From a virus: DNA of 64,000 nucleotides. Shown here piece after piece: positions 22,193-44,748 of this stretch. Numbering within the stretch: position 1 is the first letter of the stretch; each line of letters starts with the position of its first letter. A program made the translations under genes and the position numbers. Under the pieces are notes generated by a model, which searched no databases, was not told the DNA's origin, and worked only from the letters and a program-made list of their open reading frames with translations. The stretch lies in IMG/VR virus record IMGVR_UViG_3300021197_001635, positions 62,001-126,000 of that record; one strand, given 5' to 3'.

Positions 22193-22215
<23 letters not shown>
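21934..22215 (+). CDS. Hypothetical protein upstream of IMP dehydrogenase
   Basis: 93 residues from ATG 21934 (GAGGAAG upstream). Starts with alternating strands (KNKIVLEITLESEAYVDEF) and contains CPIDMMKMIAGQCRLP. Overlaps the IMP dehydrogenase start by 23 bases, so the two are translated together. No family recognised. Confidence 0.62.
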
Positions 22216-24296
<2,081 letters not shown>

Positions 24297-27319: not shown

Positions 27320-28690
27320 ATGAAGAATTTCAAACAGTTTGTCTTGACAGAGGCTAGAGGATTCTTCATGGGTCACCACATAGGTGATGATGTGGTGTTC
27401 AAATCAGGATCTTATGCTAGTGCTGGGTCTTTCACCATTGTTTCTCATGACATGGTATCGGACATTCACTCCAAGGTGGATGGTTATGTTCAAAAAGGTT
27501 ATGAGGTTGCACAACAATGGACTGGTCCAGATAAAGAGATCACTGATACTAGTAAGGTAGATAGTTATAATGATGGTAGAATCATAGTATTAGATAGCCA
27601 GAAGAAAAAAGTCATAGTGGTCATATTTGGCAAGGGTAAAAATTCTGGTGCATCACCTAGAAGATTCAACCTTAGATACTCAACAAGCACAGAATCGCTA
27701 GACCTTAAACCTCAATCATTGGGTCTGAAAGAGAAGCCCTATGGTATGGATTCTTTCGCTAATACTGTAATAAATGCGGTCCTCGACAGGAAAGATTTAG
27801 ACCCAGCAGTCAAGGGTTATCTCGAACTTCTAGTTGAGTATTATTGGAATAATTATAGCAATGAAGTGGCAAACGACATCAAGAATGAGTATGGTGATGT
27901 CCTCAGTAGCATGCCCATGGGTCAGATTAAGAAGAACTTCGGTGAAATAATAGGTCCCTTAGCAATTCTTGCAAGCAAATCCGTACTGTTCAAATCAATG
28001 AAATTCAATAAAAGAGACAAAATACTCTTGCCTTTAAGGGGTAACGAGGAACTGGTAGACTTCTATCTTGTGAAAGACGGGAGACAAATACCTTTCTCTG
28101 CCAAGTCTGGAAGATCTACTACCAACTTGGTAAAGCCAGGCAATATAGTGTCACTGATTGATGCTAACCCCTCCTTCAAGAGGAAATACGGTAGGTCTCT
28201 GGAAGTCAAGGTTATGAAAGACCTTGCCAGCAACGTAGCAACTGATGGACCCATGGTAGCAGCATATAACCTTAACAAATCTATCAAGGAATTCAAGAAG
28301 ATCTCCAAGGAGATGCTAGACCATTGGACTTCTACCTCCAGTAGGAAGGGCAGAGATTGGAAGTATATCCCCGAGTTATATGATGACTATGCTTCGGCTA
28401 TCGGATTGAACACCAGCGGAAGAAAGAAACCAACGTTTGGTGAAATACTCTATTACACCGAAACAACCCTCGCTAGAGCAAGCAAGGGTGGGATATTAGA
28501 CTACTCAGAGATGTTCAATGAGGTGGTAGGTGGTGCAGTCAACTACATCAACCTAGTCAAGATGGATAAAAACGGTCTACCAGTGTGGGAGACCTCAGAA
28601 GGTGGAAGATCAACTGCCCATTTGAGAACTAAAAATGGAACTACTAGGATCGCAACAGACAAAGTTGGTTTACAAGTACATACAGGGTAA
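27320..28690 (+). CDS. CTS-bearing head protein with possible PD-(D/E)XK nuclease motif
   Basis: 456 residues. N-terminus MKNFKQFVLTEARG is a T4-like capsid-targeting peptide with cleavage LTE/A after residue 11. Near residue 250, ELVDFYLVKDGRQIPFSAKS has the spacing of a PD-(D/E)XK core (Asp, then SAK) seen in restriction-like nucleases, but supporting acidic residues are not certain. If packaged, it could be injected to attack host DNA. TATATATAA and AAGGAG precede the gene. Family not otherwise recognised. Confidence 0.6.
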   Translation: MKNFKQFVLTEARGFFMGHHIGDDVVFKSGSYASAGSFTIVSHDMVSDIHSKVDGYVQKGYEVAQQWTGPDKEITDTSKVDSYNDGRIIVLDSQKKKVIVVIFGKGKNSGASPRRFNLRYSTSTESLDLKPQSLGLKEKPYGMDSFANTVINAVLDRKDLDPAVKGYLELLVEYYWNNYSNEVANDIKNEYGDVLSSMPMGQIKKNFGEIIGPLAILASKSVLFKSMKFNKRDKILLPLRGNEELVDFYLVKDGRQIPFSAKSGRSTTNLVKPGNIVSLIDANPSFKRKYGRSLEVKVMKDLASNVATDGPMVAAYNLNKSIKEFKKISKEMLDHWTSTSSRKGRDWKYIPELYDDYASAIGLNTSGRKKPTFGEILYYTETTLARASKGGILDYSEMFNEVVGGAVNYINLVKMDKNGLPVWETSEGGRSTAHLRTKNGTTRIATDKVGLQVHTG

Positions 28691-28693
28691 TAA

Positions 28694-29239
28694 ATGAATA
28701 GATTTATATGGTTCAATACTGACGAAGAGACTATAACACTTGAAACAAGATCTTATAAATCTCATATGGCTGGATGGCATGCATTAGTGGCAGTTCAAAA
28801 TCCTGATTCTATGGGTTTTGACCAGTCTGTGATTATGGATTTGCTGGGAGAGGAAAGATATAATACACTAGCAGGAATACCGATCGAAAGTGCATTCTCT
28901 GGTGATAACAAGAAGAAATTGCAACAAATGGAAGATTATGAGAGACCGATAGAATCCTTGATTTACAAAGAAAGACCAATGATGGTGAAGGCTAGGAGAT
29001 CTTTAGATTCTCACAGCGGTAAAAACTGCTGGTTTATCACATCCACAGATAAGGATAAGGCTAGAATATTTCTAAAGCGGATGGGTGGAGAGATGAAAGA
29101 CAGAGATATTATTATGATATCTACCCTGTCTAAGGAAGTGGATAAAGAGTTCACATGTAGAGAATCGGCGATAAGACATCTAGAAGGAAGAAAGAGATCT
29201 ATTATAGGTGAAAGAATGGAACAGATAAGGAACTTATAG
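28694..29239 (+). CDS. Hypothetical late protein
   Basis: 181 residues, charged, mixed alpha/beta, with KNCWFITSTDKDKARIFLKR near 111 and a basic C-terminus. No targeting peptide, signal or membrane segment. It lies three bases after the nuclease-like gene and four before the next, so it is in the same late transcript. No family recognised. Confidence 0.62.
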   Translation: MNRFIWFNTDEETITLETRSYKSHMAGWHALVAVQNPDSMGFDQSVIMDLLGEERYNTLAGIPIESAFSGDNKKKLQQMEDYERPIESLIYKERPMMVKARRSLDSHSGKNCWFITSTDKDKARIFLKRMGGEMKDRDIIMISTLSKEVDKEFTCRESAIRHLEGRKRSIIGERMEQIRNL

Positions 29240-29243
29240 CACT

Positions 29244-30608
29244 ATGAATGAGAATCTCAATAAAGGCACAAATAAAGACCACGGTTCCTCATCGGGCAAA
29301 TTCGTCAAAGGTTGGGTTCATCCCTCTGGTAAGGTATATGTGTGGAACAAGATGGAACCGTATCATGTTCAGTATATTGCTAATAATCCTAGCAAGTTTA
29401 GACTCAAAGAGCAAGATATACTAGACCATCTAATAGAAAGATATGAAGACTATGGTGTTAACCAACCAGCTACATCAGCAAGAAGCGAGATGATCAATCT
29501 TAAGAATGGTCGTACTGATATTGATAGAAAAGTAGAATTGATGGTGATAAAAAAGGGTTGGTGTAGATTTGTGCTTGATGATGACTGGGGGGGTCTCAGA
29601 GGTATCAAAAATAAAGACATACACAAATGTGCCAAGATATTGTTCGACAAGATGGAAAGAAGGTTCACCAAAAGTTTTGGACTAGAGGTGAATATAATAG
29701 ATGCTAGGCTTGGGGACTATAATTACCGAAAAGGTAAATATCTGGCCCACGACATGCTAAGGGCATGGGTAAACGGTAAACAACCAGACCCCCATAGTGT
29801 TCAATTAAGGAAGCATACCGAAATAGGAAGGACTATGAAAATGTTCAGGGGTCATGACTGGGACGAGCCAGTAAAGATTTATAGTAGTCACATACCTTTA
29901 TCGTTCAAAGAATGGTTGAAAGAATCCGTGGAAATGAAAGACGGAAAGTATGTTACCGTGAAGCAGTTTAACTCTGAGGATGCGGCTATGGCATCTATAG
30001 AGAATGCAGAAGGTCTTATTGACCACATGAAGATTATGGATTCTGTATATACTATGGTGTTCGATAGTGAAGACCACAAAGAGAAGTTCGTAAAAGATCA
30101 TGAATTTAATCTTATGGGGGAATCAACCACACATGATTCTAACTCAATTAGTGAGAAGAGCAGTAGAGCAGAGATAGAAGGTGCTATGGAGTGGTGGCAT
30201 GGCGAAATCACTGCATCCAGTAAGAGAGATAGAGCCGCTATGGGGTATGGTAGACCTGAGCATATTAGGGAACTAATCAAAAGACCTGTGCCTAATCTTA
30301 AATATCATATTAAGATGTATAATGCTTACCTAGACGAATACGGTCCTTTTGATGAAGTACCATCCAGATTAGAAGAGGCAAGAAGATTTACACCATCTGG
30401 TACATTCCAATTTCCTAGTGCAAACCAAGCAAAAGATTTCATGAGTGATATTTCAAGAGAAGGAAGAGGGAATATCCAAACTCAACACAGATTTGAACAA
30501 GGTTATGGCAGGAAGAATATAATCGATGTAAAATGGTCAGGCACTATGGATAGAGTAGTATATGACGTTCTTAGAAAATATAATGGCCGTGCATGGACTC
30601 AAGGGTAG
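29244..30608 (+). CDS. Multi-domain head protein with internal targeting/cleavage motifs
   Basis: 454 residues. The N-terminal 210 residues include KGWVHPSGKVYVWNK and a central mixed domain. Then SFKEWLKESVEMKDG near 220 looks like an internal copy of the capsid-targeting/cleavage peptide (LKE/S), and SRLEEARRFTPSG near 373 is another LEE/A site. The stretches after each site look like separate small domains. A prohead-protease-processed polyprotein is the simplest reading; activity unknown. Confidence 0.58.
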   Translation: MNENLNKGTNKDHGSSSGKFVKGWVHPSGKVYVWNKMEPYHVQYIANNPSKFRLKEQDILDHLIERYEDYGVNQPATSARSEMINLKNGRTDIDRKVELMVIKKGWCRFVLDDDWGGLRGIKNKDIHKCAKILFDKMERRFTKSFGLEVNIIDARLGDYNYRKGKYLAHDMLRAWVNGKQPDPHSVQLRKHTEIGRTMKMFRGHDWDEPVKIYSSHIPLSFKEWLKESVEMKDGKYVTVKQFNSEDAAMASIENAEGLIDHMKIMDSVYTMVFDSEDHKEKFVKDHEFNLMGESTTHDSNSISEKSSRAEIEGAMEWWHGEITASSKRDRAAMGYGRPEHIRELIKRPVPNLKYHIKMYNAYLDEYGPFDEVPSRLEEARRFTPSGTFQFPSANQAKDFMSDISREGRGNIQTQHRFEQGYGRKNIIDVKWSGTMDRVVYDVLRKYNGRAWTQG

Positions 30609-30615
30609 GACCTTA

Positions 30616-31275
30616 ATGAAATCATTTAAGCAATTCATACTAGAGACATATGCTGATTCTGGCATAGGCAAGTGGATGAGACAGTCTGCTGGGGGATCAC
30701 CAGGCTGGGATAGGTATGGTACTAGCGGACAAAAACTGGGTAAATGTGGGGATGCAAAAGAGGGAGATGCATACTCTGCATGCTTATCTGCTAGCAAGGC
30801 TAAGAAATTGGGTAAAGATGGAATAGCATCATATGTTAGAAGAAAAAGGGATGCACAGAAGAAGTCTGGCGACTCTTCCAAAGGTGGTGAGGAAAAGAAG
30901 GGTCAGAAACCAGTATATGTCAAGACAGAGAGTAAAGAGCCTGGTAAGGACTATCATGAAAAGATGGCAGATAAGTTGAGGAAAGCAGGATTTGACCTGA
31001 GGAAACCAATCAGCAGGAAAAAAGCATGGGATGTCATCGGAAGTATGGCAGTTAGCAGGCTTGCTGACAAAGGATATATAGATATAGAGGGTGGTGAGGG
31101 TAGACAGAAAAGAGAATCTGTTATAGAGTCTGACAACAAGCCTACCAACCCATCTCTATGGAAGAAAGCATTATCTAAGGCTAGATCTAAATTCGATGTA
31201 TTCCCATCAGCATATGCTAGTGCTTGGGCATCAAAGTGGTACAAAGAACAAGGTGGAGGTTGGAAAAAGAAATGA
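30616..31275 (+). CDS. CTS-bearing protein with DUF5872-like domains
   Basis: 219 residues from ATG 30616. Leader MKSFKQFILETYADS has an ILE/T cleavage-type site. Residues about 19-76 (GKWMRQSAGGSPGWDRYG..GKCGD..ACLSASKAKKL) and the C-terminus (NPSLWKKALSKARSKF..PSAYASAWASKWYKEQGG) match small basic domains recurrent in cyanophages and large algal viruses (DUF5872-like). Strong positive charge suggests DNA compaction or delivery with DNA. ATGA overlap to the next gene. Confidence 0.72.
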   Translation: MKSFKQFILETYADSGIGKWMRQSAGGSPGWDRYGTSGQKLGKCGDAKEGDAYSACLSASKAKKLGKDGIASYVRRKRDAQKKSGDSSKGGEEKKGQKPVYVKTESKEPGKDYHEKMADKLRKAGFDLRKPISRKKAWDVIGSMAVSRLADKGYIDIEGGEGRQKRESVIESDNKPTNPSLWKKALSKARSKFDVFPSAYASAWASKWYKEQGGGWKKK

Positions 31276-31931
31276 AATCATTTAAGCAATTCATAAAAGA
31301 GCAGCAAATGGGTGGTGGACCTCCAGGCGGTTTCCCAGACGATTTGCCTGATTGGCCAGAAGAAGATATGTGGGATACTATAAACGATGATGGGACTTGG
31401 ACTTCTGGAGGATATACTTGGTATATTCGAGATGGTCAACTATATGTATACATAGATGGAGAATGGTACTTGCGTGGTGCTTCACTAGACACTGGTGAAG
31501 ACGAAGATTCGACCGCAAATGGACGAGATGGGATAGACTGGCGTGATAGTTATGGTCTCCTGTTCCAGATTCTTATAGATTTGGGATATAGTATTAAAGA
31601 AATACGTGAACTGGGCATTCCAGTCCCTGAACATGAGCCATGGGAGGACCCCAAGGACGACCCTGATTACGACCCAAATGTGGATGGGATACCACCTTGG
31701 TGGGACCAACCAAATAACCCCCCACCACCTCTCCCCGATGGAACTGATCCTGTTTATCTAGAGGATGGTCCATATGGACCAGGCTGGTACTATGATGATG
31801 AATTTACTCCAGTTCTTCCAGAAGATTATGAATCAGGCATGATGTCTAATTATGGACCATCTGGGGTAGCGGCCATGCCTTCATCTATACCATCGCTTAC
31901 ACCTAATATCAAGGGTGGAGGACCCAAATGA
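31272..31931 (+). CDS. CTS-bearing Pro/Asp/Trp-rich head protein
   Basis: 219 residues from ATG 31272. Leader MKSFKQFIKEQQMGG, then an acidic, Trp/Tyr/Pro-rich low-complexity body (DDLPDWPEEDMWDTI, WWDQPNNPPPPLPDG). Net strongly negative. Similar bodies recur at 34148 and 34888. Possibly a core protein or DNA mimic inside the head; not recognised. Confidence 0.6.
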   Translation: MKSFKQFIKEQQMGGGPPGGFPDDLPDWPEEDMWDTINDDGTWTSGGYTWYIRDGQLYVYIDGEWYLRGASLDTGEDEDSTANGRDGIDWRDSYGLLFQILIDLGYSIKEIRELGIPVPEHEPWEDPKDDPDYDPNVDGIPPWWDQPNNPPPPLPDGTDPVYLEDGPYGPGWYYDDEFTPVLPEDYESGMMSNYGPSGVAAMPSSIPSLTPNIKGGGPK

Positions 31932-32884
31932 AGTCATTTAAGCAATTCATCATAACTAAGGCAGATATAGACAGTATCACATATGGTACTCCTACCGTCC
32001 AACAGCAAGAGAGAATGGACAAGGAACTGGAGTATTTTGATGACAGTATATATGACCTAGTTACGATGGGGTGTGCACCGAGCAATACCAGCGACACTAC
32101 CAAGAAAGAATTGTATTACCTACACAGGGTAGAAAAAAACGAAGAAATGTTTGAAAAGTATGACATGCATTTTTCTCCCTCTATATTCGGTTATGCTAGA
32201 GATAATGGTCTAGACTTTGATGAAGAAGAACTTAGACGGATAAAAAGAGAAGCATCTAACATATTGCTACACGTAAAATTCCACTTTAACAGGCCTAGAC
32301 CTTATCAGATAGCGGACTCCCTTGGTATGGAGCTAGACCACATGAATACCGAATCTGGTCACACACCCTCATACCCCAGCGGGCATGCAGGTTTGGCAAG
32401 GCTATTGGCACTGCTGATTGCTAAAGACAACCCAGATTATAAAGACGAACTAATCGCCATCGCGGATGAGATAGCCTTATCTAGAGAGATAGGCGCTGTT
32501 CATTTTCCCTCAGACAATGATTTTGGTAAAGAAGTTGCCAATATAATGTATAGCGAACTCACTGGTGAGGAATTGCAGGAATGTGATTGCGGTTGTGATG
32601 AGCGTTTAGATGAGGCAGAATACCAAGGCAAGAAGGTAACATTAAATAAGCCTTTTAGAACGCCTGGAGAATCTAAGAAATTTGCAGTTTATGCCAAGAA
32701 TGATAAAGATAAAGTGGTAATTGTTCGATTTGGTGACCCGAATATGGAAATCAAGAGGGATGACCCGAAGAGATTAAAAGCATATCGCTCAAGAATGGGT
32801 TGCGACACCGATCCAGGACCCAAATGGAAAGCAAACTACTGGTCTTGTTATCAGTGGAGAGCTGGTGCAAAAGTAGACGACTAA
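31928..32884 (+). CDS. CTS-bearing PAP2-type phosphatase fused to phage head domain
   Basis: 318 residues. Leader MKSFKQFIITKADID. All three PAP2 acid-phosphatase motifs are present: KFHFNRPRP near 117, YPSGHAG near 149 and SREIGAVHFPSD near 188, so it should be an active phosphatase on a lipid phosphate or small phosphoester. A protease site DERLDEAEY near 225 separates a C-terminal domain with VTLNKPFRTPGESKKFAVY and FGDPNMEIKRDDPKR, a module common in T4-like marine phages (DUF6321-like). A head-packaged phosphatase is unusual. Unlike most PAP2 enzymes it has no membrane helices. Confidence 0.8.
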   Translation: MKSFKQFIITKADIDSITYGTPTVQQQERMDKELEYFDDSIYDLVTMGCAPSNTSDTTKKELYYLHRVEKNEEMFEKYDMHFSPSIFGYARDNGLDFDEEELRRIKREASNILLHVKFHFNRPRPYQIADSLGMELDHMNTESGHTPSYPSGHAGLARLLALLIAKDNPDYKDELIAIADEIALSREIGAVHFPSDNDFGKEVANIMYSELTGEELQECDCGCDERLDEAEYQGKKVTLNKPFRTPGESKKFAVYAKNDKDKVVIVRFGDPNMEIKRDDPKRLKAYRSRMGCDTDPGPKWKANYWSCYQWRAGAKVDD

Positions 32885-32925
32885 TTCGGAGGTAGGTGAT
32901 ATGTTCATCATGAAAAAAGAATCAT

Positions 32926-33144
32926 ATGACAATAGACTGGATAGACGTAGCACTAACACTCCTAACTACGGGGTTTTTTTCCCTAATAGGGTTTGTATGG
33001 AAATACTCACATAAGGTAACAGCATTGGAAAAAGATGTTGCTGATAATAAGAGAAGAATAAGGAAAATGGAATCTGACCACGACAAGGTAATGGACAAAA
33101 TGTATTCTATTGTGAAATCCCGTGGGGACTTTCAAATCAAATAG
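32926..33144 (+). CDS. Small N-anchored coiled-coil membrane protein
   Basis: 72 residues. One hydrophobic segment WIDVALTLLTTGFFSLIGFVW, then a coiled coil (TALEKDVADNKRRIRKMESD). The topology resembles phage holin/spanin accessory proteins. The only good ribosome site (GGAGGT at 32888) belongs to an out-of-frame ATG at 32901 that opens a 37-codon frame, so translation may be coupled or shifted at the A6 run near 32911. Confidence 0.6.
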   Translation: MTIDWIDVALTLLTTGFFSLIGFVWKYSHKVTALEKDVADNKRRIRKMESDHDKVMDKMYSIVKSRGDFQIK

Positions 33145-33154
33145 GGGTACTCAA

Positions 33155-33499
33155 ATGGAAAAATCAACCAATAAAGAAGAATGTTCAGTGTGTCGTGAAA
33201 AAGATGTAGAGAGACTCAAGTTCGAACTACATAAATGTAAAGATGCAGGTAAGGTTAAAGATAAGAAGATTAAACAGTTAGACAAAAAGGTGTTCGTACT
33301 CACTTTCATAGCAGTCGCTATTGGTGCTATTTTTGGTAAGGAAGTGTTAGATACAGTCATTGAATGGTTGGAATCAATCGGCAGTTTTAATTCTGGTGTT
33401 AATCACATAACTCATACTGGGGTATATCCAGCGCCTGGAACATTGGCAGTATTTGCACTACCAGTAATCATGGGAAGAAGAAGCAGGAAGAGAAAATGA
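33155..33499 (+). CDS. Membrane protein with PAPG-type exosortase (PEP-CTERM-like) tail
   Basis: 114 residues from ATG 33155. N-terminal CSVCREKD and basic coiled region, one transmembrane segment (VFVLTFIAVAIGAIFG, about 50-65), then a C-terminal tripartite sorting signal: YPAPG, hydrophobic TLAVFALPVIM, and basic GRRSRKRK. This is the layout of PEP-CTERM exosortase substrates, and PAPG is the form common in planctomycetes. It could be a surface or lysis protein processed by the host exosortase. Unusual for a phage; ATGA overlap with the next gene. Confidence 0.65.
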   Translation: MEKSTNKEECSVCREKDVERLKFELHKCKDAGKVKDKKIKQLDKKVFVLTFIAVAIGAIFGKEVLDTVIEWLESIGSFNSGVNHITHTGVYPAPGTLAVFALPVIMGRRSRKRK

Positions 33500-33948
33500 A
33501 ATCATTTAAACAATATATTGACGAAGCAGTGACCGATGATCGCAAGGAAGTCGCTAAAGGGCTTAAGAAGTGGGCAAAGCAATATGTGAGCGGATCTATA
33601 TCGGTTAAATCGGGTAGTGGTAAAACTCCCTTTGTCCAGTTGACGGCAAGAGGAGGGGAGATCAGCAATGACCTCCGCAAGATGGTAATCGACAAAATAT
33701 TCACAGATGCTAAAGTACGCGACATGAATGATATTAGTTACGGTAACGTCACTAAGAATTATATCGCTATCACCTCTGATCAATGGAAGAAGGTGATGGG
33801 ACTGGATGAGACTATAGTTAAGAGCGGTGACAAGTGGAAGGTCATGAACAAGGACAAGTCAAAGACCTTAGGTACTCACGACTCTAAAAAGATGGCCCTC
33901 AAGCAGTTAGCAGCCGTAGAAATAAGCAAAGCGAGCAGAGGGAAATGA
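33496..33948 (+). CDS. CTS-bearing small head protein
   Basis: 150 residues. Leader MKSFKQYIDEAVTDDR with IDE/A cleavage site. Central basic strand region (KSGSGKTPFVQLTARGG) and C-terminal module KSGDKWKVMNKDKSKTLGTH followed by KKMALKQLAAVE, a short unit seen as a tail in many phage proteins. Function unknown; probably packaged. Confidence 0.65.
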   Translation: MKSFKQYIDEAVTDDRKEVAKGLKKWAKQYVSGSISVKSGSGKTPFVQLTARGGEISNDLRKMVIDKIFTDAKVRDMNDISYGNVTKNYIAITSDQWKKVMGLDETIVKSGDKWKVMNKDKSKTLGTHDSKKMALKQLAAVEISKASRGK

Positions 33949-34151
33949 AATCTTTCAAAGAATATATAATAGAGAGGCTTAGGATCAACTACAAAAAAGG
34001 TAGAAAATTGGTGGCTACCAAGGGTAGTAAAGAAGGCGAGACTGGAACTGTGGTGTCTATGGGTCCCAATGCGGCATTTGTACGAATCAAACTGGATAAG
34101 AACGATCAGGTAATACAGCAGAATCCTAAATTCTGGAAAGTTATGAAATGA
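33945..34151 (+). CDS. CTS-bearing KOW/SH3-like small protein
   Basis: 68 residues. Leader MKSFKEYIIERLRINY (IIE/R site). The remainder, GRKLVATKGSKEGETGTVVSMG with AFVRIKLDKND, looks like a small beta barrel of KOW/SH3 type. Basic; may bind nucleic acid in the head. Overlaps by four bases on both sides. Confidence 0.6.
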   Translation: MKSFKEYIIERLRINYKKGRKLVATKGSKEGETGTVVSMGPNAAFVRIKLDKNDQVIQQNPKFWKVMK

Positions 34152-34882
34152 AATCATTTAAACAATATCTAGAAGAGAACTTGGGTTCAGGTTCTAAAAT
34201 TAGTCTTTCCCCAAGTTCTAGTATGGGGAATTTCAGAAGCACTCCATCACCTCCACCAGAAGGTGAAGGAGAAGGTGAAGAAGGACCAGTAAAACTCGTA
34301 CCAACCACAGACCCAACTCAATGGGTGGATCCCGATGGGAACCACTATTGGGATTCAGATGGAGATGGTGTTCCAGACATGATTTGGAACGGAGATGCAT
34401 GGGTGGTAATACCACCTGGATTAGAATTTGAAGATGGAGAAGAACCAGACGAAGATGAAGATGAAGATGAAGAACCAGATGAAGGTGAGGACGAGGATGA
34501 GGACGAGGATGAAGATGAAGAACCAGATGAAGAAGATGATGATTTAGTAGAAATACCATGGGAGCTTTGGCAACAACTTCAATTATTGCAGCCAGCATTC
34601 AATCCTGGCTTATACTTCAAACCTCCAGGCGGTGAGGGTGGTGGAGATGGTGGTGGTGGAGGTGGCAATATAAATTGGTATAAAGAAACTCCATGGAAAC
34701 CAGGCTACCCACATCCAAGTGATGGTAGTCCCAGTCCTTCAACTCCAGGTAACTGGATTCCCCTACCCTATGGTAACTGGTGGAATACAGATGAACGTCG
34801 ACCACGAGGTAGACAAGAGTACGACGAATTAGAATGGTACTATGACCCATCGAACATCGGTGGTGGTGGGAGCATGCCATAA
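34148..34882 (+). CDS. CTS-bearing acidic Asp/Glu/Pro/Gly-rich head protein
   Basis: 244 residues. Leader MKSFKQYLEENLGSGSK with LEE/N site. The body contains WVDPDGNHYWDSDGDGVPD, which has a calcium-loop-like DxDxDG, and a long EDEDEDEEPDEGEDEDED run, then Gly/Trp-rich repeats. Extremely acidic, so it may mimic DNA or bind cations in the head. Leader region nearly duplicates that at 34888. Confidence 0.6.
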   Translation: MKSFKQYLEENLGSGSKISLSPSSSMGNFRSTPSPPPEGEGEGEEGPVKLVPTTDPTQWVDPDGNHYWDSDGDGVPDMIWNGDAWVVIPPGLEFEDGEEPDEDEDEDEEPDEGEDEDEDEDEDEEPDEEDDDLVEIPWELWQQLQLLQPAFNPGLYFKPPGGEGGGDGGGGGGNINWYKETPWKPGYPHPSDGSPSPSTPGNWIPLPYGNWWNTDERRPRGRQEYDELEWYYDPSNIGGGGSMP

Positions 34883-34887
34883 ATCCA

Positions 34888-35601
34888 ATGAAATCATTTA
34901 AACAATATCTAAAAGAGAACTTGGGTTCAGGTTCTAAAATTAGTCTTTCCCCAAGTCCTAATATGGGGATGGGAGATTTTAGAAGTAACCCAACACCTCC
35001 ACCACCACCAGAAGGCGAAAGTTCTCTGGGGTGGAGTCCTTGCGGTGGTTGTGGACCCGATGGACAGCCTGGTGAGTTTATACCTGATGGTCAGGGTGGG
35101 ACATATTTTTATGACCCCGCAACTGGTGATACCTACTATTACAACCCAGCAACTGGTGAGTGGTCGAATTTCTCCGATGGGGACGACAATGACTCCATCA
35201 CACCACCAGACCCAGAACCAGGCCCATCACCAGACCCATTTAAACCAGTTGTTGTACCCAGAGAGAAATATGACAAATGGGATAACTGGTGGGATGAAAA
35301 TATGCCACCTGAATATCCGCCGTTTGATTTCTGGTTCCATCCAGACGATGAAGAATATGAAGACCCAGCAGACATTCCTGCACCATCAGGATGGCCACCA
35401 AATGTACCGTGGCCACCACCAGACTTTCCTCCTGGAATGGACCCTGCAAACTACAACGATATGCCTCCTGCGGGCAATGGTTGGTATCAGTTCTGGGACC
35501 CAAATAATGAACCGTTCTATTACAACCCAGGCCCACCACCTTCATATCAGTATGGTGAACCTTACAATGTGGACCCATCTGTACCACCTTGGGAAGCATA
35601 A
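34888..35601 (+). CDS. CTS-bearing Pro/Gly/Asp/aromatic-rich head protein
   Basis: 237 residues. Leader MKSFKQYLKENLGSGSK (LKE/N site), then Pro/Gly/Tyr-rich repeats (YYYNPATGEW, PGPSPDPF, WPPPDFPPGMDP). The first 80 or so bases match those of the previous gene with about three differences; bodies then diverge. Function unknown. Confidence 0.6.
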   Translation: MKSFKQYLKENLGSGSKISLSPSPNMGMGDFRSNPTPPPPPEGESSLGWSPCGGCGPDGQPGEFIPDGQGGTYFYDPATGDTYYYNPATGEWSNFSDGDDNDSITPPDPEPGPSPDPFKPVVVPREKYDKWDNWWDENMPPEYPPFDFWFHPDDEEYEDPADIPAPSGWPPNVPWPPPDFPPGMDPANYNDMPPAGNGWYQFWDPNNEPFYYNPGPPPSYQYGEPYNVDPSVPPWEA

Positions 35602-36810
35602 ATGAAATCATATAAGCAATTCATCAACGAAGGTAAGAACACTCACCTAGAGCATCTAGAAGATGAACTCTGGAACGAGGGTTCCGCAGGCGTAGAGAAC
35701 GCACTACGTTTCGTGGGTGAGGTTGCTTCTATGTTATCTGGTAATGCTGATTCTTCTATTAATATCACCACTAAATGGGATGGTGCACCTGCTATTTTCT
35801 GTGGTATCAACCCTGAAAACGGCAAATTCTTTGTTGGTACTAAGAGTGTGTTCAATACTGGTCAGCCTAAGATCAACTACACCAATGCAGATATCAACAA
35901 GAATCATGGTGGGGGATTGGCAGAAAAACTGAAGATAGCACTCAAACATCTACCTTCATTAGGTATTAAAGGTGTCCTTCAGGGAGACCTGATGTTCACA
36001 TCCAGTGATCTAAGCAGCATGAAGGTAGACGGGAAATCCCATGTCACCTTCACACCCAACACTATCACCTATGCTATCCCAGAAGGGTCGGATGCTGCCA
36101 AAGAGGTTAAGTCCGCTAAAATGGGTATAGTATTCCACACCAAATATTCTGGAAGGAAGATGTCAGACATGAAGGCATCATTCAACCCCAAGGTGAAATC
36201 TCTCAGGAAAAACAAGGCTGTTTGGTTCAGGGATGCCGATTTCAAAGACGAAAGTGGTAGTTCCACTCTAACATCCAGTGAAAAGGATGTTATAATGTCT
36301 AAAGTGAAGGATGCTAAATCCCTACTGTCCAGTACATCTAAGACAATAGAGTCCTTCAGATCCAACAGGCAGATAATACCTTTCGTCAAGATATACATGA
36401 ATAGTATGGTAAAAGAAGGCAGCACCGTAGGCAATACTGACGGTCTCATTAGTCACATATCTGCTAAGTTCGATAATGACATAAATAAATTGAAGACAGA
36501 CGCTGCTAAAGAAAGAAAGAATGCTATAAGAGAAGAGATAGTCAAATACCTCAGATCAGAAGAGGCTAGGCTAGATAAAATATTTAAATTGCATTCTGTT
36601 CTTACCGATATCAAAATAATGCTGGTAAGAAAATTGGAGAGGATTAAGGGTATAGGAACCTTTATTAGAGATGATAAAGGTTTCAGGGCTACGTCTCCAG
36701 AAGGATTTGTGGCAGTAGATAGGATTTCCAATAAGGCACTTAAACTGGTCGATAGACTAGAATTCAGCAGGTCTAATTTTACGGTTGCTAAAAACTGGGT
36801 AAAGGGATAA
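35602..36810 (+). CDS. CTS-bearing nucleotidyltransferase/ligase-like protein (KxDG motif)
   Basis: 402 residues. Leader MKSYKQFINEGKNTHLEHLE with INE/G site. ITTKWDGAPAIFCG (K58, D60, G61) is a ligase/capping-type motif I; GVLQGDLMF near 124 and SPEGFVAVD near 372 fit motifs III and IV, with a terminal Lys in FTVAKNW near 396. It matches a conserved cyanophage family of ligase-like proteins (DUF6267-like). It could adenylate and join nucleic acids, possibly repairing DNA just after injection. Catalysis is inferred from motifs only. Confidence 0.75.
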   Translation: MKSYKQFINEGKNTHLEHLEDELWNEGSAGVENALRFVGEVASMLSGNADSSINITTKWDGAPAIFCGINPENGKFFVGTKSVFNTGQPKINYTNADINKNHGGGLAEKLKIALKHLPSLGIKGVLQGDLMFTSSDLSSMKVDGKSHVTFTPNTITYAIPEGSDAAKEVKSAKMGIVFHTKYSGRKMSDMKASFNPKVKSLRKNKAVWFRDADFKDESGSSTLTSSEKDVIMSKVKDAKSLLSSTSKTIESFRSNRQIIPFVKIYMNSMVKEGSTVGNTDGLISHISAKFDNDINKLKTDAAKERKNAIREEIVKYLRSEEARLDKIFKLHSVLTDIKIMLVRKLERIKGIGTFIRDDKGFRATSPEGFVAVDRISNKALKLVDRLEFSRSNFTVAKNWVKG

Positions 36811-36815
36811 AAAAA

Positions 36816-37883
36816 ATGAGCGATAAAACATTATCTGAGGCAATAAGACAAGACTTAATGTCTAACATATTCGAGGCTAAAATGTCGTCTTCGGCGAGTG
36901 ACCCGACTGGAAATACCTCTAGTTTCTCAGGCGGCATAGCAGCATTGTCCCAAGATGTTGAATCTGGGGGTAGTCCGATCACCCCTGCATACACTAGGAT
37001 GGCATTGGATAGAGCAGCGGCTAAGAGTATGAATCCCCTATACAGGTCTATGATGAACTGGTTAAGGAGAACATCCAAGAAGAGGGACGACGAAGAAATG
37101 GGAATGAGGAGAGAATCTGCCGAGATCTATGAGAATCTAGGTTATTCTAATCCATACTCCATGAAACAACCACAGAAACCCGAGGATGACTCAGATATGC
37201 AAGAGATTCCTATGTGGGATTCTTTGACTGGCAGGAAGAAGAAATTCAAGGCTATAATGACTCCTCCCCAAGATGATGCTCTCAGAAGTTCTAGAGAAAT
37301 AAATCAAGACATGAGAGACGGATATATGCAAGCAGCAGCAGCCCAAAGAATAACACAACCTTCTGGTGGTTCTGATCCCAGAGGATTCGAGGTTCCTTAT
37401 GGATTCCGCATACCAGTGGGTGCAAATAAAGACGAATTGGACTTTGGTATGAGTTATCATGAGTATGAGACGAGGAAGAAAGAACATGATCAAAACCCCA
37501 CCAACATGAACAGTGCATATGCTGACCATCCAGCGGTAATGAAGCATCTGGACCAACAGAAGCAGCTCCAGCAAGTCCAGCAGGCAGACCAAATGAATGC
37601 TCAGGGTGGTGAAGAGCAACAACAGCCTGGTGGAATGCCTGGAATGGGTGCTGGTGGAGACCAAATGCAGCAGATGATGCAGCAAATGATGGGTGGTATG
37701 CAAGGTGGTGGACAGCCCCAGATGCCTCCTATGGGTGGGATGGGCAAAAAGCCCCAGATGCCTCCTATGGGTGGGATGGGCAAAAAGCCCCAGATGCCTC
37801 CTATGGGCAAAAAAGACGACACGGCGCAAGACATCATGAAACTACTCAGAGGTATGGGTGGTAGAGACAAGAGAAGAAGATAA
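36816..37883 (+). CDS. Prohead core/scaffold-like protein with tandem Met-Pro-Gly repeats
   Basis: 355 residues. N-terminal amphipathic helix (SEAIRQDLMSNIFEAKM) with IFE/A cleavage site near residue 20. Central helical region, Gln-rich segment (DQQKQLQQVQQADQ), then Gly/Met-rich C-terminus with three QMPPMGGMGKK repeats encoded by 36-bp units. Composition resembles scaffolding proteins degraded on maturation. Family not firmly recognised. Confidence 0.6.
   Translation: MSDKTLSEAIRQDLMSNIFEAKMSSSASDPTGNTSSFSGGIAALSQDVESGGSPITPAYTRMALDRAAAKSMNPLYRSMMNWLRRTSKKRDDEEMGMRRESAEIYENLGYSNPYSMKQPQKPEDDSDMQEIPMWDSLTGRKKKFKAIMTPPQDDALRSSREINQDMRDGYMQAAAAQRITQPSGGSDPRGFEVPYGFRIPVGANKDELDFGMSYHEYETRKKEHDQNPTNMNSAYADHPAVMKHLDQQKQLQQVQQADQMNAQGGEEQQQPGGMPGMGAGGDQMQQMMQQMMGGMQGGGQPQMPPMGGMGKKPQMPPMGGMGKKPQMPPMGKKDDTAQDIMKLLRGMGGRDKRRR
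37716..37811 (+). repeat. 36-bp tandem repeat, about 2.7 copies
   Basis: Unit starts CCCCAGATGCCTCCTATGGG and ends GGCAAAAAG; copies at 37716, 37752 and a partial at 37788. In frame, encoding the Met-Pro-Gly repeats of the scaffold-like protein. Confidence 0.92.
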
Positions 37884-37906
37884 TCAATTAAAAAGGAGAA
37901 TATAAA

Positions 37907-38026
37907 ATGGACGGATTTTTAGGAACTATTTGGTGGTCGGTACTCATGTTCGTAGCAGGAGCACTAATTGGAACTCCTCTTTGGGGATGGGTTAAGAGTT
38001 TCATGCCTTGGAACAATAAGGACTGA
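37907..38026 (+). CDS. 39-residue membrane protein
   Basis: Short gene with AAAGGAGAA eight bases upstream. A single hydrophobic helix WWSVLMFVAGALIGTPLWGWV followed by a short Trp/Lys tail. It begins 23 bases after the scaffold-like gene and ends two bases before the next. Too short to assign; small-holin or assembly-factor roles are only possibilities. Confidence 0.6.
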   Translation: MDGFLGTIWWSVLMFVAGALIGTPLWGWVKSFMPWNNKD

Positions 38027-38027
38027 T

Positions 38028-40163
38028 ATGGTGACAAGAGGCGGCTCGTATATTAGCGAAGCAAATGGTAAGGGAATGGTATTTACCTTCGGTAGATTCA
38101 ACCCTCCCCATGGTGGTCATGAATTATTGATCAATAAGGTAATATCTACTGCTAAAAAATATGGTCACGAGCATTCGATATATGCCAGTCAGTCTCAAGA
38201 TTCAAACAAAAACCCCTTGGGGTATAATGATAAAATCAAATATATGAAGGCAGCCTTTAAACAGGCTAATGTTGTTAAAGACCCCAAGATGAAAAATCCT
38301 TTTTTCGTAGCGAAGAAGCTAAGCGATGAAGGTTACAAGCACGTAATTCTAGTAGTAGGTGGGGACCGTGTAAAAGATCTTGAGAGAGAAATCAGGAAAT
38401 ACATTGGTCACAAGGATCCAAACAAATCATTCAACTTCGACACTTTTAGTGTGGTGAGTGCTGGGAAAAGAGATCCAGATTCCGATGATGTCACTGGTAT
38501 GTCCGCTTCTAAGATGCGATCACTAGCATCTGATGGAGACTTTGATGGATTTAGCAAAGGCGTTCCTTCCTCAATGTCCTCATCCAATACCAGAAAAATG
38601 TATGATTCCATAAGAAAATCTATGGGTGTCAGAGAAGACATATCTAGTCTATTTGACCAACTGGATGTAGGGATATCAGAAGAAGAACTGAATAGGCAGG
38701 CAATCAATAGATTGGACCTAGACTCTTTGCAACTCCTAGGAATCATGGAACAGGTAGAAGAAGAGCCTACTGTAATAATACTTTCTATCTTCGATGAAGA
38801 GGGAGAGTACAGCGATACCACAGACAAATTGGTGAAATCTTGTGACAAGATTGGGTTAACTAACTATGTGGTGTCGGTAGAAGACGCTTATGTGGTAGAC
38901 GAAGACATGGATGATAACATCATTACTATCCATAACTACAACGGCAACGGCAAGAAACTAAATCTGAATACTAGTAACACGGTGTGTTTCCCCAGAGGAA
39001 GTGTGCTGAAGAACTATTCTGGTATAGGTATACTCAGCATAATACAAGACACTGATATATTCTCTGTTAACAAACTAAGTAGCATGGAATTAGCACAGAA
39101 CAAGTTTGCTACTGCTATAGCACTGGAAAGAGCTAGCATTAACTCACCAAGGACGGCATTGGTTGCCAACGAGGATGCGATAGAGATAGCATTAGAGAAG
39201 ATAGGTGGAAAATTCCCCGTAGTAGTCAAGACAATCACTGGAGCAGAAGGAATTGGTGTTTCACTAGTAGAATCAAGAGAGTCGTTGACTGGTGTTCTGC
39301 AGTCCTTGTGGAAATTCGAAGCAGAAGTCATCATACAGGAATATTTCAAGATAGACTATGATATCAGATCCATAGTCCTCGACGGCAAGGTTATTGCCAG
39401 TGCTAAGAGATTGAAAGGGCAAGGAGATTTTAGGACTAACAAATCTCTAGGAAATGAAACAGAACCTTATGTCTTGTCAGAAGAAGAAATAGAAATAGTT
39501 GAAAAGGCTGCCAGCGTCATTAAATGCTATTGGTGTGGTGTAGACCACATGGTGGTGGATGGAGAAGACGGTGAGGAATATAAGGTATTGGAAGTGAACG
39601 GTTCGCCTGGAAGCGGAGCAGAACCATTTCACTCATACTTTGGTGATGGTGGAGAGGTAAGCGGTCAAGGCATGATAGATTATGTAGTGGACTATGTCTC
39701 AGATAGAGAAAACTGGGTGTCATCTACCACCGAAATCGGAGCGGTAGAAGAGATAGAGATAATAGGAATGGGCAAGGCAGATGCCAGAATAGACACGGGC
39801 AACGAGTCTTATAATGTCCTTCATGTGGATAGTGCCGAGTACAGCACCGAAGACAAAGATATGGTCAGATTTTCCACCATGGGTGAAACCAAGCAACTAC
39901 CAGTAGAAGAGGTGGTGACCATAAATACGGGAAGCGGCAACAAAGAAAAGAGGATGGTGGTCAAGCTTGACCTGAAGATAGGAAGCAAGACCATCAAAAA
40001 TGTCAAGTTCTCTCTTGCAGATAGAGAAGACAATGACTATCCAATACTAATAGGTAAGGTATTTTTAAAGAATCACCACTTTTCAGTGGACGTAGCCAAA
40101 GAGCACGTGATGAAGGAATCTTTAGAAACACTAAATAATAAGTTCACCAATCTCGCTATTTGA
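38028..40163 (+). CDS. Tri-domain fusion: HxGH nucleotidyltransferase, ATP-grasp ligase, retropepsin-like protease
   Basis: 711 residues from ATG 38028. Domain 1 (about 15-200) has TFGRFNPPHGGHELLI with HxGH and the C-terminal GMSASKMR of cytidylyltransferase-fold enzymes. A linker with ISEEELNRQAINR follows. Domain 2 (about 330-550) is a RimK-like ATP-grasp: FPVVVKTITGAEGIGVSLVE, VIIQEYFKIDYDIRSIVL and EVNGSPGSG. Domain 3 (about 575-700) is a RimK-associated aspartic protease type: KADARIDTGNES (Asp588) and ADREDNDYPILIGKVFLKNH. It probably adds and perhaps removes amino-acid tails on a protein. The combination is unusual; order of action unknown. Confidence 0.8.
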   Translation: MVTRGGSYISEANGKGMVFTFGRFNPPHGGHELLINKVISTAKKYGHEHSIYASQSQDSNKNPLGYNDKIKYMKAAFKQANVVKDPKMKNPFFVAKKLSDEGYKHVILVVGGDRVKDLEREIRKYIGHKDPNKSFNFDTFSVVSAGKRDPDSDDVTGMSASKMRSLASDGDFDGFSKGVPSSMSSSNTRKMYDSIRKSMGVREDISSLFDQLDVGISEEELNRQAINRLDLDSLQLLGIMEQVEEEPTVIILSIFDEEGEYSDTTDKLVKSCDKIGLTNYVVSVEDAYVVDEDMDDNIITIHNYNGNGKKLNLNTSNTVCFPRGSVLKNYSGIGILSIIQDTDIFSVNKLSSMELAQNKFATAIALERASINSPRTALVANEDAIEIALEKIGGKFPVVVKTITGAEGIGVSLVESRESLTGVLQSLWKFEAEVIIQEYFKIDYDIRSIVLDGKVIASAKRLKGQGDFRTNKSLGNETEPYVLSEEEIEIVEKAASVIKCYWCGVDHMVVDGEDGEEYKVLEVNGSPGSGAEPFHSYFGDGGEVSGQGMIDYVVDYVSDRENWVSSTTEIGAVEEIEIIGMGKADARIDTGNESYNVLHVDSAEYSTEDKDMVRFSTMGETKQLPVEEVVTINTGSGNKEKRMVVKLDLKIGSKTIKNVKFSLADREDNDYPILIGKVFLKNHHFSVDVAKEHVMKESLETLNNKFTNLAI

Positions 40164-40178
40164 TCAGGGAGTATCAAA

Positions 40179-41141
40179 ATGAAATCGTTCAAAGATCTTA
40201 GAAATAAAATATCCAAAGTGTTGTCGGAGCATCACGATGGTAACGGAATGGGTCTGCAAGTCCCAAACATGAATGCACCATACGCATCTGACGGTGGAGT
40301 AAACATGTTCATGGTTGAAGACCCAGAAGTCTTAAATAGACTCAACCTAGCACTCAAGAACGTCCTAGAGTCTTCTAGAGGTGCAAGCACCAATACTCAG
40401 ATGGTAGCAATCAAGACGGCATTAGTTCAATGTGGACTTGACTTCGATACCTCTGAAATCACCATATCAGAGTCAGAAGGTGGATCCCAAGAATTGCAGT
40501 TAAAGCAGTTTGGTGGAAGAACTGGCATGACTCCTGAAGAAGGATTCGTCGATGATGATGGCATCTCCCATAGGAACGATGGTAAGGGCATGGTAGTTAG
40601 AATCGAGATGAAGGTAGACAATGGATCTAAGGATATCAGTGCCGTGGTTATGCCTAAGGCAATGTCTGAGTCCTTTATATTTGAATCACCTATGGGGATG
40701 GGTGGTATGGGTATGGGTGCTCAGCAAATAAATCAACCACAGCAGAAACCTAAGCCTCTAGGTTTGGGTAAGGGAGACACACGGCTTACACCACCTGCGG
40801 ATGATAATGCAGTTGATTGGGACGCGTGGTATGAGGAATGGTTAGAAAATAATGGTGGTAATGCCAGCTATTGGGGTCAACTAGGTAACTTCTGGGATTA
40901 TACTGGTCTCGGTCCCCCATCTTGGGCAGAATTAGTGGGTGTATCACAAGGAAACCCCGACTTTAATTGGGGAACTTTCCTACAAAACTTCTCAGATAAC
41001 TTCCCTGCAGTAGACGATATTGTAGAAACAACCATGTTTGGTAATCCAGCATTTCTCATGGGATTTGTGAGCGGTGGAGGTTTCGGATTCTATTATGACC
41101 AAGATGCTGGTCAATGGGTCATAAACGATTTCGGTGGCTGA
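40179..41141 (+). CDS. CTS-like head/scaffold protein
   Basis: 320 residues. Leader MKSFKDLRNKISKVLSEHHD has an LSE/H cleavage-type site. Residues about 95-165 (SQELQLKQFGGRTGM, DDDGISHRNDGKGMVVRIEM) match a domain seen in cyanophage head-cluster proteins. A second site FIFES/P precedes a Gly/Met stretch and an acidic Trp/Phe-rich C-terminus. Probably core or decoration; function unknown. Confidence 0.62.
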   Translation: MKSFKDLRNKISKVLSEHHDGNGMGLQVPNMNAPYASDGGVNMFMVEDPEVLNRLNLALKNVLESSRGASTNTQMVAIKTALVQCGLDFDTSEITISESEGGSQELQLKQFGGRTGMTPEEGFVDDDGISHRNDGKGMVVRIEMKVDNGSKDISAVVMPKAMSESFIFESPMGMGGMGMGAQQINQPQQKPKPLGLGKGDTRLTPPADDNAVDWDAWYEEWLENNGGNASYWGQLGNFWDYTGLGPPSWAELVGVSQGNPDFNWGTFLQNFSDNFPAVDDIVETTMFGNPAFLMGFVSGGGFGFYYDQDAGQWVINDFGG

Positions 41142-41172
41142 TAATCCCTGATATAAAAGAGAATTTTTGTTA

Positions 41173-41568
41173 ATGAAGAATTTTGAAACATTGAACTCTG
41201 GTAATTATATGATGTTTGCCATGAAGAATTATGACAATCCTCAGTGCTTAGACATGGATGAATTCAACGCAGATCTCAATAGGATAAAATACCTTAAGAG
41301 ATTGTTCAGAAGATACCATACTACTGAGGATTTAAAGGAAAGATTGATACTTAATCACCTGATCATATTATATAATGTTTTTGGCATTATACCCGCGACC
41401 AGACTCCTATTTCATAGAATGGACGTTGAGTACCATTCACTGCTGAAGACTTTTATAGTATTTTTGAACTTCTTGCCCGAGCTTGACAGAGTAAACGAGA
41501 TTAGAGAAGCGGATTTGATTTCCATACCGCTTGACCAAAAGGTAATAAAGACACTAAGGAAGATCTGA
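41173..41568 (+). CDS. Conserved all-helical T4-like marine phage protein (DUF7207-like)
   Basis: 131 residues from ATG 41173. Conserved pattern KNYDNPQCLDMDEFNADL, IKYLKRLFRRY, LKERLILNHLIILYNVFG and LLKTFIVFLNFLPELD fits a family found next to head genes in marine T4-like phages (DUF7207-like). Predicted all-alpha and soluble. Activity unknown. Confidence 0.75.
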   Translation: MKNFETLNSGNYMMFAMKNYDNPQCLDMDEFNADLNRIKYLKRLFRRYHTTEDLKERLILNHLIILYNVFGIIPATRLLFHRMDVEYHSLLKTFIVFLNFLPELDRVNEIREADLISIPLDQKVIKTLRKI

Positions 41569-41570
41569 AC

Positions 41571-42140
41571 ATGGCTGGAGCACTTGACATTTTTGTTGCC
41601 TACAAGTTCATAAAGATCTTGACCACCCCTTATAAAAAGACCAAGGCCTATCAACTGGGAATAATTGGCGACAAAGGACAGATCTTAAAAAAGAGGAAAG
41701 ATCTGAAATCTGGAGAGAAGCAGCACTACACTGCTATCCATGGTCTAATATGGAATCTCAAGAAGAAAATATTAGATAAATTGCCTCCGACTAGGACCAG
41801 ATTGGGATCTTTTGCCACTGGTCTATGGCTGCTTAAAGAAGAACTCAGTATGACTGACTCCAGTCTGATTGAAGATACTTTCCTTGAGCATATTGGAGAG
41901 GAGAGGGTCACCCTCAACGAGATGTTCTCCAACGCAACCAGCAAGAGTATCAAAAAGGGCGATTACATCATTAAAGAAGGATGCACCCCAGCATATGATT
42001 TCGTGAAGCCAGGGGATCTGATCAATATAAATAATACCAGATCGATTGCCAATATACTGGGAACACCCATATACGAAGGCACACACAAACTGACCAACGA
42101 AAGGGTGGTTATAACAAATGAAGAACTTCTCAGAATTTAG
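41571..42140 (+). CDS. Conserved T4-like marine phage head-cluster protein
   Basis: 189 residues. N-terminus ALDIFVAYKFIKILTTPYKK with AYQLGIIGDKGQILKK is a conserved block of cyanophage/pelagiphage proteins encoded beside DUF7207-like genes. No catalytic motif or membrane helix. It overlaps the following gene by 23 bases. Structural or assembly role inferred from neighbourhood. Confidence 0.7.
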   Translation: MAGALDIFVAYKFIKILTTPYKKTKAYQLGIIGDKGQILKKRKDLKSGEKQHYTAIHGLIWNLKKKILDKLPPTRTRLGSFATGLWLLKEELSMTDSSLIEDTFLEHIGEERVTLNEMFSNATSKSIKKGDYIIKEGCTPAYDFVKPGDLININNTRSIANILGTPIYEGTHKLTNERVVITNEELLRI

Positions 42141-43758: not shown

Positions 43759-44282
43759 TGAAAAGTCTGGTCATGACAACATTGATGACTTTGCTAATGA
43801 GCAGTGGATTGATTGCATCGGAGACTAATTATGAAATCAATAATGGCAGTGACCATACTACTATCTTCTCTATTATGCATGACGGCATGCGTGACTACAC
43901 GGGGTATAGATTCCCATCCAGAGAACACAGCATCCACGGTCGTGGACAGTGTAAGAGAGCAGAAAGAGCAGACAGAAGAGATAACGGATGCCTCAAACGA
44001 AATAAGTGGGAGTCTGGAGAAGATAGACAACCACGCAGATTCGATTTTAGACGAGATAGCACTTGCCCCAGAGGATCGGGACCCAAGCATCGACCCAACA
44101 TTGAACTCGATAGAGGATTCAGCGGAGTCGATCAAGGAAGAGGTAGATTCGGCCCAGAAGGAGCAGGTGAGGATAGACGAGGCATTAGAGGACCTAGAAT
44201 CCGCAAATGCAAGGGTATCCGCTGCCGTAGGTCAAATAAAGCAGTTAGAAGATCTGGTAGCAGACTACGAGCAATCCGATAG
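43758..44282 (+). CDS. Doubtful overlapping ORF with signal peptide (possible embedded gene)
   Basis: Starts at ATG 43758 overlapping the previous stop (TGATGA). The first 24 codons, before the overlap with the lipoprotein gene, encode a good signal peptide MKSLVMTTLMTLLMSSGLIASE. The rest is Arg/Gly-rich and reads through the lipoprotein gene in another frame, where such composition often appears by chance. Overlapping spanin gene pairs are known in phages, so I keep it at low confidence. Confidence 0.25.
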   Translation: MKSLVMTTLMTLLMSSGLIASETNYEINNGSDHTTIFSIMHDGMRDYTGYRFPSREHSIHGRGQCKRAERADRRDNGCLKRNKWESGEDRQPRRFDFRRDSTCPRGSGPKHRPNIELDRGFSGVDQGRGRFGPEGAGEDRRGIRGPRIRKCKGIRCRRSNKAVRRSGSRLRAIR

Positions 44283-44748
44283 GGAAGTTCGTAAAGAAGC
44301 ACTAGAGAACCTACATAGTTTCATCACCCTATTCTTCGTGATAGGGTTTGGTATGCTTATTGGTGGTGCATTCCTAACATTCTGGGTGAATAGTAAACTG
44401 GGTGGTGTAGTCTTAGCAATAGGTGTTCTTACCGTTGGGTTCGCAGCCGCATCACAATATTACCTTGAAGAGATAGCGGTGGTCGGTCTTATTGTGTTGA
44501 TAATAGGATTCTTAGCATCTTTAGGTGTGGTAGGATGGATGCTAATCGATGGTAGGAACGATAAGAAGGCGATTGCCGAGATAGTGGAATTGATTGAAGA
44601 GACTAAGGACCATCTGACACTGGAAGAGAGACAAGAAATCTTCGGTCGCGATGGTTTCGCCTCTAGGATGACCAGTGACTTGACCAAGAAGATAATAGCA
44701 CAGGTCAAGATTAAGAACGGCTTCAAAAACCTAACGAGACATAAATAA
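43831..44748 (+). CDS. Lipoprotein with coiled coil and C-terminal membrane helices (u-spanin-like candidate)
   Basis: 305 residues from ATG 43831 (GGAG seven bases upstream). Lipoprotein signal ending LLCMTAC (Cys20), long acidic coiled coil (about 30-160, for example QKEQTEEITDASNEISGSLE), then three hydrophobic helices (FFVIGFGMLIGGAFLTFWV, LAIGVLTVGFAAASQYY, GLIVLIIGFLASLGVVGWM) and a cytoplasmic-type tail. An outer-membrane lipid anchor joined by a periplasmic coil to inner-membrane helices is the plan of a unimolecular spanin, although those normally have one helix and are shorter. Role in envelope disruption is inferred. Confidence 0.68.
   Translation: MKSIMAVTILLSSLLCMTACVTTRGIDSHPENTASTVVDSVREQKEQTEEITDASNEISGSLEKIDNHADSILDEIALAPEDRDPSIDPTLNSIEDSAESIKEEVDSAQKEQVRIDEALEDLESANARVSAAVGQIKQLEDLVADYEQSDREVRKEALENLHSFITLFFVIGFGMLIGGAFLTFWVNSKLGGVVLAIGVLTVGFAAASQYYLEEIAVVGLIVLIIGFLASLGVVGWMLIDGRNDKKAIAEIVELIEETKDHLTLEERQEIFGRDGFASRMTSDLTKKIIAQVKIKNGFKNLTRHK

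Follow-up and report, generated by a model that had tools for sequence, protein, structure and literature searches.

A family of small phage membrane proteins with a putative exosortase-type sorting tail

Introduction

Can the product of a phage gene be addressed, through its C-terminal end, to the protein sorting machinery of the host? The question is raised by an open reading frame (ORF) lying in the window, i.e., the whole stretch of 64,000 nucleotides analysed here, taken from a virus record of 136,012 bases (bases 62001-126000). The substrates of the exosortase (EpsH), described by the models TIGR02595 and PF07589, exhibit a tripartite tail composed of (i) a Pro motif, (ii) a hydrophobic span, and (iii) a basic cytoplasmic end, and the product of this ORF ends in the same manner. 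In PEP-CTERM proteins, the PEP motif is described as near-invariant and nearly all members possess an N-terminal signal peptide and no internal span, the exosortase being thought to act at the outer face of the membrane (PMC1569441). Such systems were reported from Planctomycetes, Verrucomicrobia, Cyanobacteria, and Proteobacteria, e.g., with 12 PEP-CTERM proteins and an EpsH in Rhodopirellula baltica (PMC1569441).

The gene and its product

The features considered here are collected in Table 1. The C-terminus of the encoded protein reads YPAPGTLAVFALPVIMGRRSRKRK. Translation could also start at a GTG at position 33122, which would make the gene overlap its upstream neighbour; the ATG was retained because it is supported by the homologues in the alignment. 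No cleavable N-terminal signal peptide is evident in the window protein as judged by hydropathy, a charged N-terminus of 45 residues preceding an internal span, the hydropathy of which averages 2.2 over the family. In the loop that follows, the window protein has no K/R and three D/E residues, for family means of 1.4 and 3.9, respectively. Following the positive-inside rule, the N-terminal coiled coil and the basic C-terminus would be cytoplasmic and the PAPG motif would sit at the outer face. As such, the gene product is predicted to be a small two-span inner-membrane protein, where a coiled coil bearing a Cys motif in the cytoplasm would be followed by span 1 and an acidic amphipathic loop outside, and then by the P-x-P at the outer membrane face, the short span 2, and the basic cytoplasmic end. 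The AlphaFold model, which is of low confidence (mean pLDDT of 66), exhibits a long helix from residue 11 to 82, a break and a short helix. When a strict filter for a P-x-P/hydrophobic/basic tail was applied to 2,945 ORFs of at least 50 aa, taken from the window and the first loci fetched, it picked the window ORF and one unlikely antisense frame only; since the filter retains almost nothing else, the tail is beyond what would be expected by chance.

Table 1. Location of the features described in the text; coordinates refer to the window unless a locus is named.
Feature	Coordinates	Strand	Description and basis
PAPG-tailed membrane protein gene	33155..33499	+	114 aa, ATG start; family alignment A5; dN/dS of close pairs
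N-terminal basic coiled coil, predicted cytoplasmic	33155..33289	+	Invariant Cys10, Cys13, Cys28 in A5; charge count
Transmembrane span 1, ending in invariant Gly-Lys-Glu	33290..33343	+	Hydropathy; G61, K62, E63 invariant in A5
Acidic amphipathic loop of 28 residues, predicted periplasmic	33344..33427	+	Charge count
PEP-CTERM-type tail: PAPG motif, 13-residue hydrophobic span, RRSRKRK, stop	33428..33499	+	Conserved in homologues; TIGR02595/TIGR03382 matches in homologues
Partner gene (MTIDW protein)	32926..33144	+	72 aa, N-terminal transmembrane span then coiled coil; adjacent homologues; PHROG matches
Possible associated envelope protein	43813..44748	+	Lipobox-like N-terminus, long coiled coil, several transmembrane spans; read by eye
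Phage-encoded outer-membrane porin (Porin_O_P)	15349-16518		Pfam
Long relatives of the window protein	L166:4282-5001; L168:4310-5020; L170:884-1612		
Secreted phage protein, 136-137 aa, PEP-CTERM tail, T4-like contigs	L111:3769-4182; L178:3004-3414; L179:2988-3401		

A conserved family retrieved without the tail

A single-sequence query with the window protein retrieved nothing related from viral contigs or from phage isolates, and the family was opened only via a degenerate DNA pattern of the tail and then N-terminal profiles. Run over 2.9 million viral contigs, the pattern returned 34 stretches, 10 of which encode the plan of the window protein, namely the Cys motif with a basic coiled coil, a span, GKE, an acidic loop, and a PAPGTLA tail. 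As this search had relied on the tail, the alignment used for the second one was cut before it, and the profile of the N-terminal half recovered 30 viral loci, a few of which are contigs already used as seeds. All 30 of them keep the tail, i.e., P-[AGSH]-P-[GSA]-[TAS]-[LM] followed by a hydrophobic stretch and basic residues at the end, the motif occurring as PAPG, PSPG, PGPG, PAPS, PHPG, or PGPA. The look-out for homologues that the sequence-only reading had proposed as a check has yielded, in viral contigs, at least 30 related proteins, every one of them tailed.

In the 30 non-redundant short members, the Pro motif is always P-[AGSH]-P, without Glu, the C-terminal hydrophobic span counts 13-15 residues, the basic cluster holds on average 4.8 K/R, and acidic residues prevail in the loop. 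Charge pattern and span length are uniform across the family, and the charge pattern predicts a two-span topology with both termini inside in every member. The dN/dS ratio between close homologue pairs is about 0.1-0.2, which indicates a real gene under purifying selection. A search with the partner gene further revealed three contigs in which the partner is followed by a long form of 236-242 aa, possessing the same N-terminal half together with some 130 extra residues outside the membrane. The C-terminal ends of these long forms read VPESSTISLLAFPLAFSSTRRR, VPETSTLGIFAFSLFRYRKRRP, and VPESHTAFTFAFLPMVFTRRRR; here the tails are of the type VPES/VPET-hydrophobic-basic and Glu is thus present (PE[ST] in 3/3).

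Comparison of the tail with sorting-signal models

The window protein gets no score with the PEP-CTERM models of Pfam and NCBIfam, for which reason these models alone would reject the finding, and nothing convincing came out for it from Pfam, NCBIfam, or PHROGs. The absence of a score had been named in advance, next to a host lacking exosortase, as grounds for abandoning the sorting-signal idea; it is true of the window protein but untrue of the family. Against curated cut-offs of 16 bits for TIGR02595 and 15.85 bits for TIGR03382, G009/L124, which shares about 54% identity with the window protein, reaches 19.8 bits with the former model, L089 reaches 16.1 bits with the same model, and L143 reaches 19.0 bits with the latter; the curated PEP-CTERM or GC_trans_RRR cut-offs are passed by some homologues. 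Among 29 members, matches were found to PEP_CTERM (TIGR02595) in 9, MYXO-CTERM in 8, and GC_trans_RRR, THxN, and EDSAP-1 in 6 each, the best E-values of members against exosortase-related models being a few thousandths. Among the families listed for controls with shuffled tails, MYXO-CTERM occurs once in 28 and no PEP-CTERM model appears.

Profile-profile comparison with hhalign aligned the family tails to the PEP-CTERM tails of other viral contigs with a probability of 97.3%, against 18% for shuffled tails, a figure to be read with the fact that a PEPGTLA-like pattern had served to choose the comparison set and biases it towards matching. The cross-match to an unrelated PEP-CTERM protein is cleaner as a test: over related phage contigs, the family profile matches the tail alone (positions 83-109) of a secreted protein of 136-137 aa, in two contigs (E-values of 2e-5 and 5e-4). 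A copy of this secreted protein, in L111, passes TIGR02595 with 19.4 bits, has a PAPG tail too and looks like ordinary cargo. At the level of sequence, the tail of the family is very probably of the PEP-CTERM kind, and conservation, HMM matches that are lost on shuffling, profile-profile comparison and the cross-match lend good support to its assignment as an exosortase-type sorting signal. The initial suggestion that YPAPG, the hydrophobic stretch and RRSRKRK copy such a signal is borne out by these comparisons.

Partner gene and gene neighbourhood

Just upstream, the window encodes a small partner protein (Table 1), close relatives of which adjoin the PAPG gene in L093, L125, L134, L149, and L161; 11 of the 21 family contigs contain a relative, not always next to the PAPG gene. 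In five of six members, the partner matches Rz-like spanins among PHROGs (best E-value of 8.4e-6). Both genes are lacking in G001-G006, and G031, a 38-kb contig, has the partner only; as G001 is a close relative, the pair is dispensable. T7 keeps its holin and Rz/Rz1 beside the large terminase (TerL), and in T7-like contigs the PAPG gene is found at or beside TerL. In the siphovirus-like L088, a two-span protein and a weak Rz-like match (E-value of 0.0017) are close by. The PAPG gene comes after a capsid-like gene in L139 and after the gene of a protein of about 1,300 aa in L129 and L140.

No endolysin lies beside the pair in the window. Further away, at 19036-19533, a lysozyme domain of the Destabilase type (Pfam, E-value of 6e-15) follows an N-terminal hydrophobic segment and makes this ORF a candidate endolysin. 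Read by eye, the product of 43813-44748 has the look of a unimolecular spanin with additional spans, and proteins built alike occur in L161 and L088; PHROGs did not confirm the spanin reading of this product. For the short PAPG protein itself, identity as a spanin was ruled out, its outer loop being only about 27 residues long. Of note, a trypsin-like secreted lipoprotein is encoded on the minus strand at 45825-46586 (by eye), and a similar gene directly follows the PAPG gene in L161 (3821-4609).

Spread across phages

The DNA polymerase of the window is closest, at about 48%, to those of T4-like cyanophages. Members of the family were found in T4-like, T7-like, and other phages, including the siphovirus-like L088, with a patchy presence among near relatives. 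To fit the tree, phage type must have changed several times, with two to four of these changes forced by well-supported branches, and the gene thus moves between kinds of phages.

Host and exosortase

No exosortase (PF09721) was found in 21 phage contigs, and it is therefore the enzyme of the host that would have to read the tail; from sequence, we consider such a reading by a host exosortase somewhat probable. The phage also encodes a porin (Table 1), which is 97% identical in G001 although the polymerase is only 73% identical; it recurs in six related T4-like contigs, and two more contigs have a version at 38%. The porin presumably resembles those of Phycisphaerae. The planctomycete-type host put forward in the sequence-only reading is kept here as a possibility: two scans of 84,980 genomes by an exact-word method returned no relative of the porin, nor was there any match in the phages or plasmids searched. 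When a made-up PEP-CTERM cargo sequence served as the query, nothing was retrieved from plasmids.

Proposed function and rival explanations

The reading we prefer, with a probability of roughly one half, is that of a membrane protein read by the host exosortase and assisted by its partner, most likely in lysis. Span 2 would be a working sorting tail of the PEP-CTERM type; the host exosortase would bind at the P-x-P and probably cleave the protein at this site, which would release span 2 and leave the outer loop either attached or freed. Together with the adjacent Rz-like protein, which has a transmembrane span and a coiled coil, the PAPG protein would act on the host envelope, most likely in lysis or its timing. 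Of the two functional claims of the sequence-only reading, the use of host sorting by the phage stands as far as the exosortase-type tail is concerned, recognition and cleavage by the host enzyme being putative; as for a new lysis or surface-modifying protein, the neighbourhood and the Rz-like partner suggest such a role, with lysis as the tentative choice. Counted against this reading are the lack of a score for the window protein, of Glu in the short forms and of a signal peptide, the internal span, the lack of a neighbouring endolysin, and the absence from G001. The broader proposal, i.e., that several kinds of phages carry a protein of lysis or of the envelope that depends on the host exosortase for its activation or placement and works with a small Rz-like partner, is more doubtful still.

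Should the P-x-P be a mere helix break, the protein could do without any exosortase and be a holin-like lysis protein, with two spans, both ends inside and a basic C-terminus. Class II phage holins, e.g., T7 gp17.5, are small and have two spans with the N and C ends inside; the PAPG protein is alike in size, in its charge-predicted topology, found in all members, in its basic C-terminus and in its nearby terminase and spanin-like gene, the TerL of T7 type and the Rz-like partner adjoining the gene and L088 offering its own two-span protein with a weak Rz-like match. Yet, it has no sequence match to holin families and possesses an extra coiled coil and a conserved sorting tail. A generic span needs no P-x-P-[GSA]-[TAS]-L pattern, which is kept in 30/30 loci; shuffled tails of the same composition lose the matches to sorting models, the tail is common to an unrelated secreted PEP-CTERM protein, and the long forms retain a similar tail after an insert of 130 aa, all of which makes a plain holin-like protein unlikely.

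Two further explanations give the tail or the location of the gene another meaning. As a substrate mimic, the protein would block the host exosortase and leave surface proteins or polysaccharide anchors unplaced, resulting in surface remodelling or in the exclusion of other phages. A recognition pattern devoid of conserved Glu in the short forms, the want of an exosortase in the phage contigs searched, a small protein with little else outside the membrane, and the patchy presence among near relatives would all suit a blocker. The secreted protein of L111, with the same PAPG tail, looks like ordinary cargo, however, the sizeable outer region and the VPES/VPET tails of the long forms would be needless for a pure blocker, and the lysis-like neighbourhood would be left unexplained; a mimic thus appears improbable. 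Still less credence is given to a virion or early-injected membrane protein aiding DNA entry across the inner membrane: the window gene does sit within a cluster of genes with leaders resembling capsid-targeting ones (MKSFKQ), and a capsid-like gene precedes it in L139 as does the gene of the large protein in L129 and L140, but the PAPG protein itself lacks the MKSFKQ leader, and the place of the gene varies between phages while the partner recurs.

Relation to known systems

Compared to PEP-CTERM proteins, the short phage forms have a P-small-P motif instead of PEP, with a span of 13-15 residues, and the protein is phage-encoded, has no evident signal peptide and exhibits an internal span as well as a predicted cytoplasmic coiled coil. 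The tail groups with PEP-CTERM-like signals but the protein fails two of the usual marks, namely the Glu of PEP, in the short forms, and a cleavable signal peptide. On the strength of sequence comparison, the PAPG family would extend the PEP-CTERM substrate class by a new variant that is carried by phages. The substrates of myxosortase, i.e., the MYXO-CTERM proteins (TIGR03901, TIGR03382), have the same tripartite layout; several members match them and L143 exceeds the TIGR03382 cut-off. The invariant Cys of the MYXO-CTERM motif is needed for cleavage by MrtX (PMC11980579), and membership of this class was ruled out as alignment A5 has no Cys just before the span. Like Rz-like spanins (phrog_739, phrog_214), which are its best PHROG match, the partner carries its span at the N-terminus, ahead of a coiled coil, but it is much shorter, its charge pattern suggests the opposite orientation, and the matches are weak.

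In the 5.39 million open-access papers to which the survey was confined, no phage PEP-CTERM protein was found described, the nearest text concerning host genes in Microcystis. PEP-CTERM tails are known from bacteria, and a phage family would make the exosortase a system exploited by phages. It would also provide a sequence marker for the phages of exosortase-bearing hosts, as well as a small substrate for probing what the exosortase, biochemically poorly known, actually does. If processing triggers lysis, this would be a new way of timing it.

Other genes of the window and the record

From 27320 to 43758, at least 10 ORFs start with MKSFKQ(F/Y)-like leaders, i.e., MKSFKQFI, MKSFKQYL, MKNFKQFV, or MKSYKQFI, reminiscent of the leader that targets T4 internal proteins to the capsid. 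A PAP2 phosphatase (31928-32884) belongs to this set, possibly a large set of packaged proteins, as do proteins that are very acidic and rich in Pro. Comparison of 29307-36800 with G001 (L077) indicates that the leader genes have been shuffled and recombined as modules between G000 and its relative G001; the segments, 72-88% identical, are arranged differently in the two, and G001 has a fusion of 1,224 aa. A glutamine synthetase gene was recognised by Pfam at 10571-11647 and, near it, genes resembling those of IMP dehydrogenase (22193-23290) and adenosine deaminase (23238-24296) were read by eye. Outside the window, L074 (G000:40001-60000) exhibits, by eye, a long run of sugar-nucleotide/glycosyltransferase-like genes.
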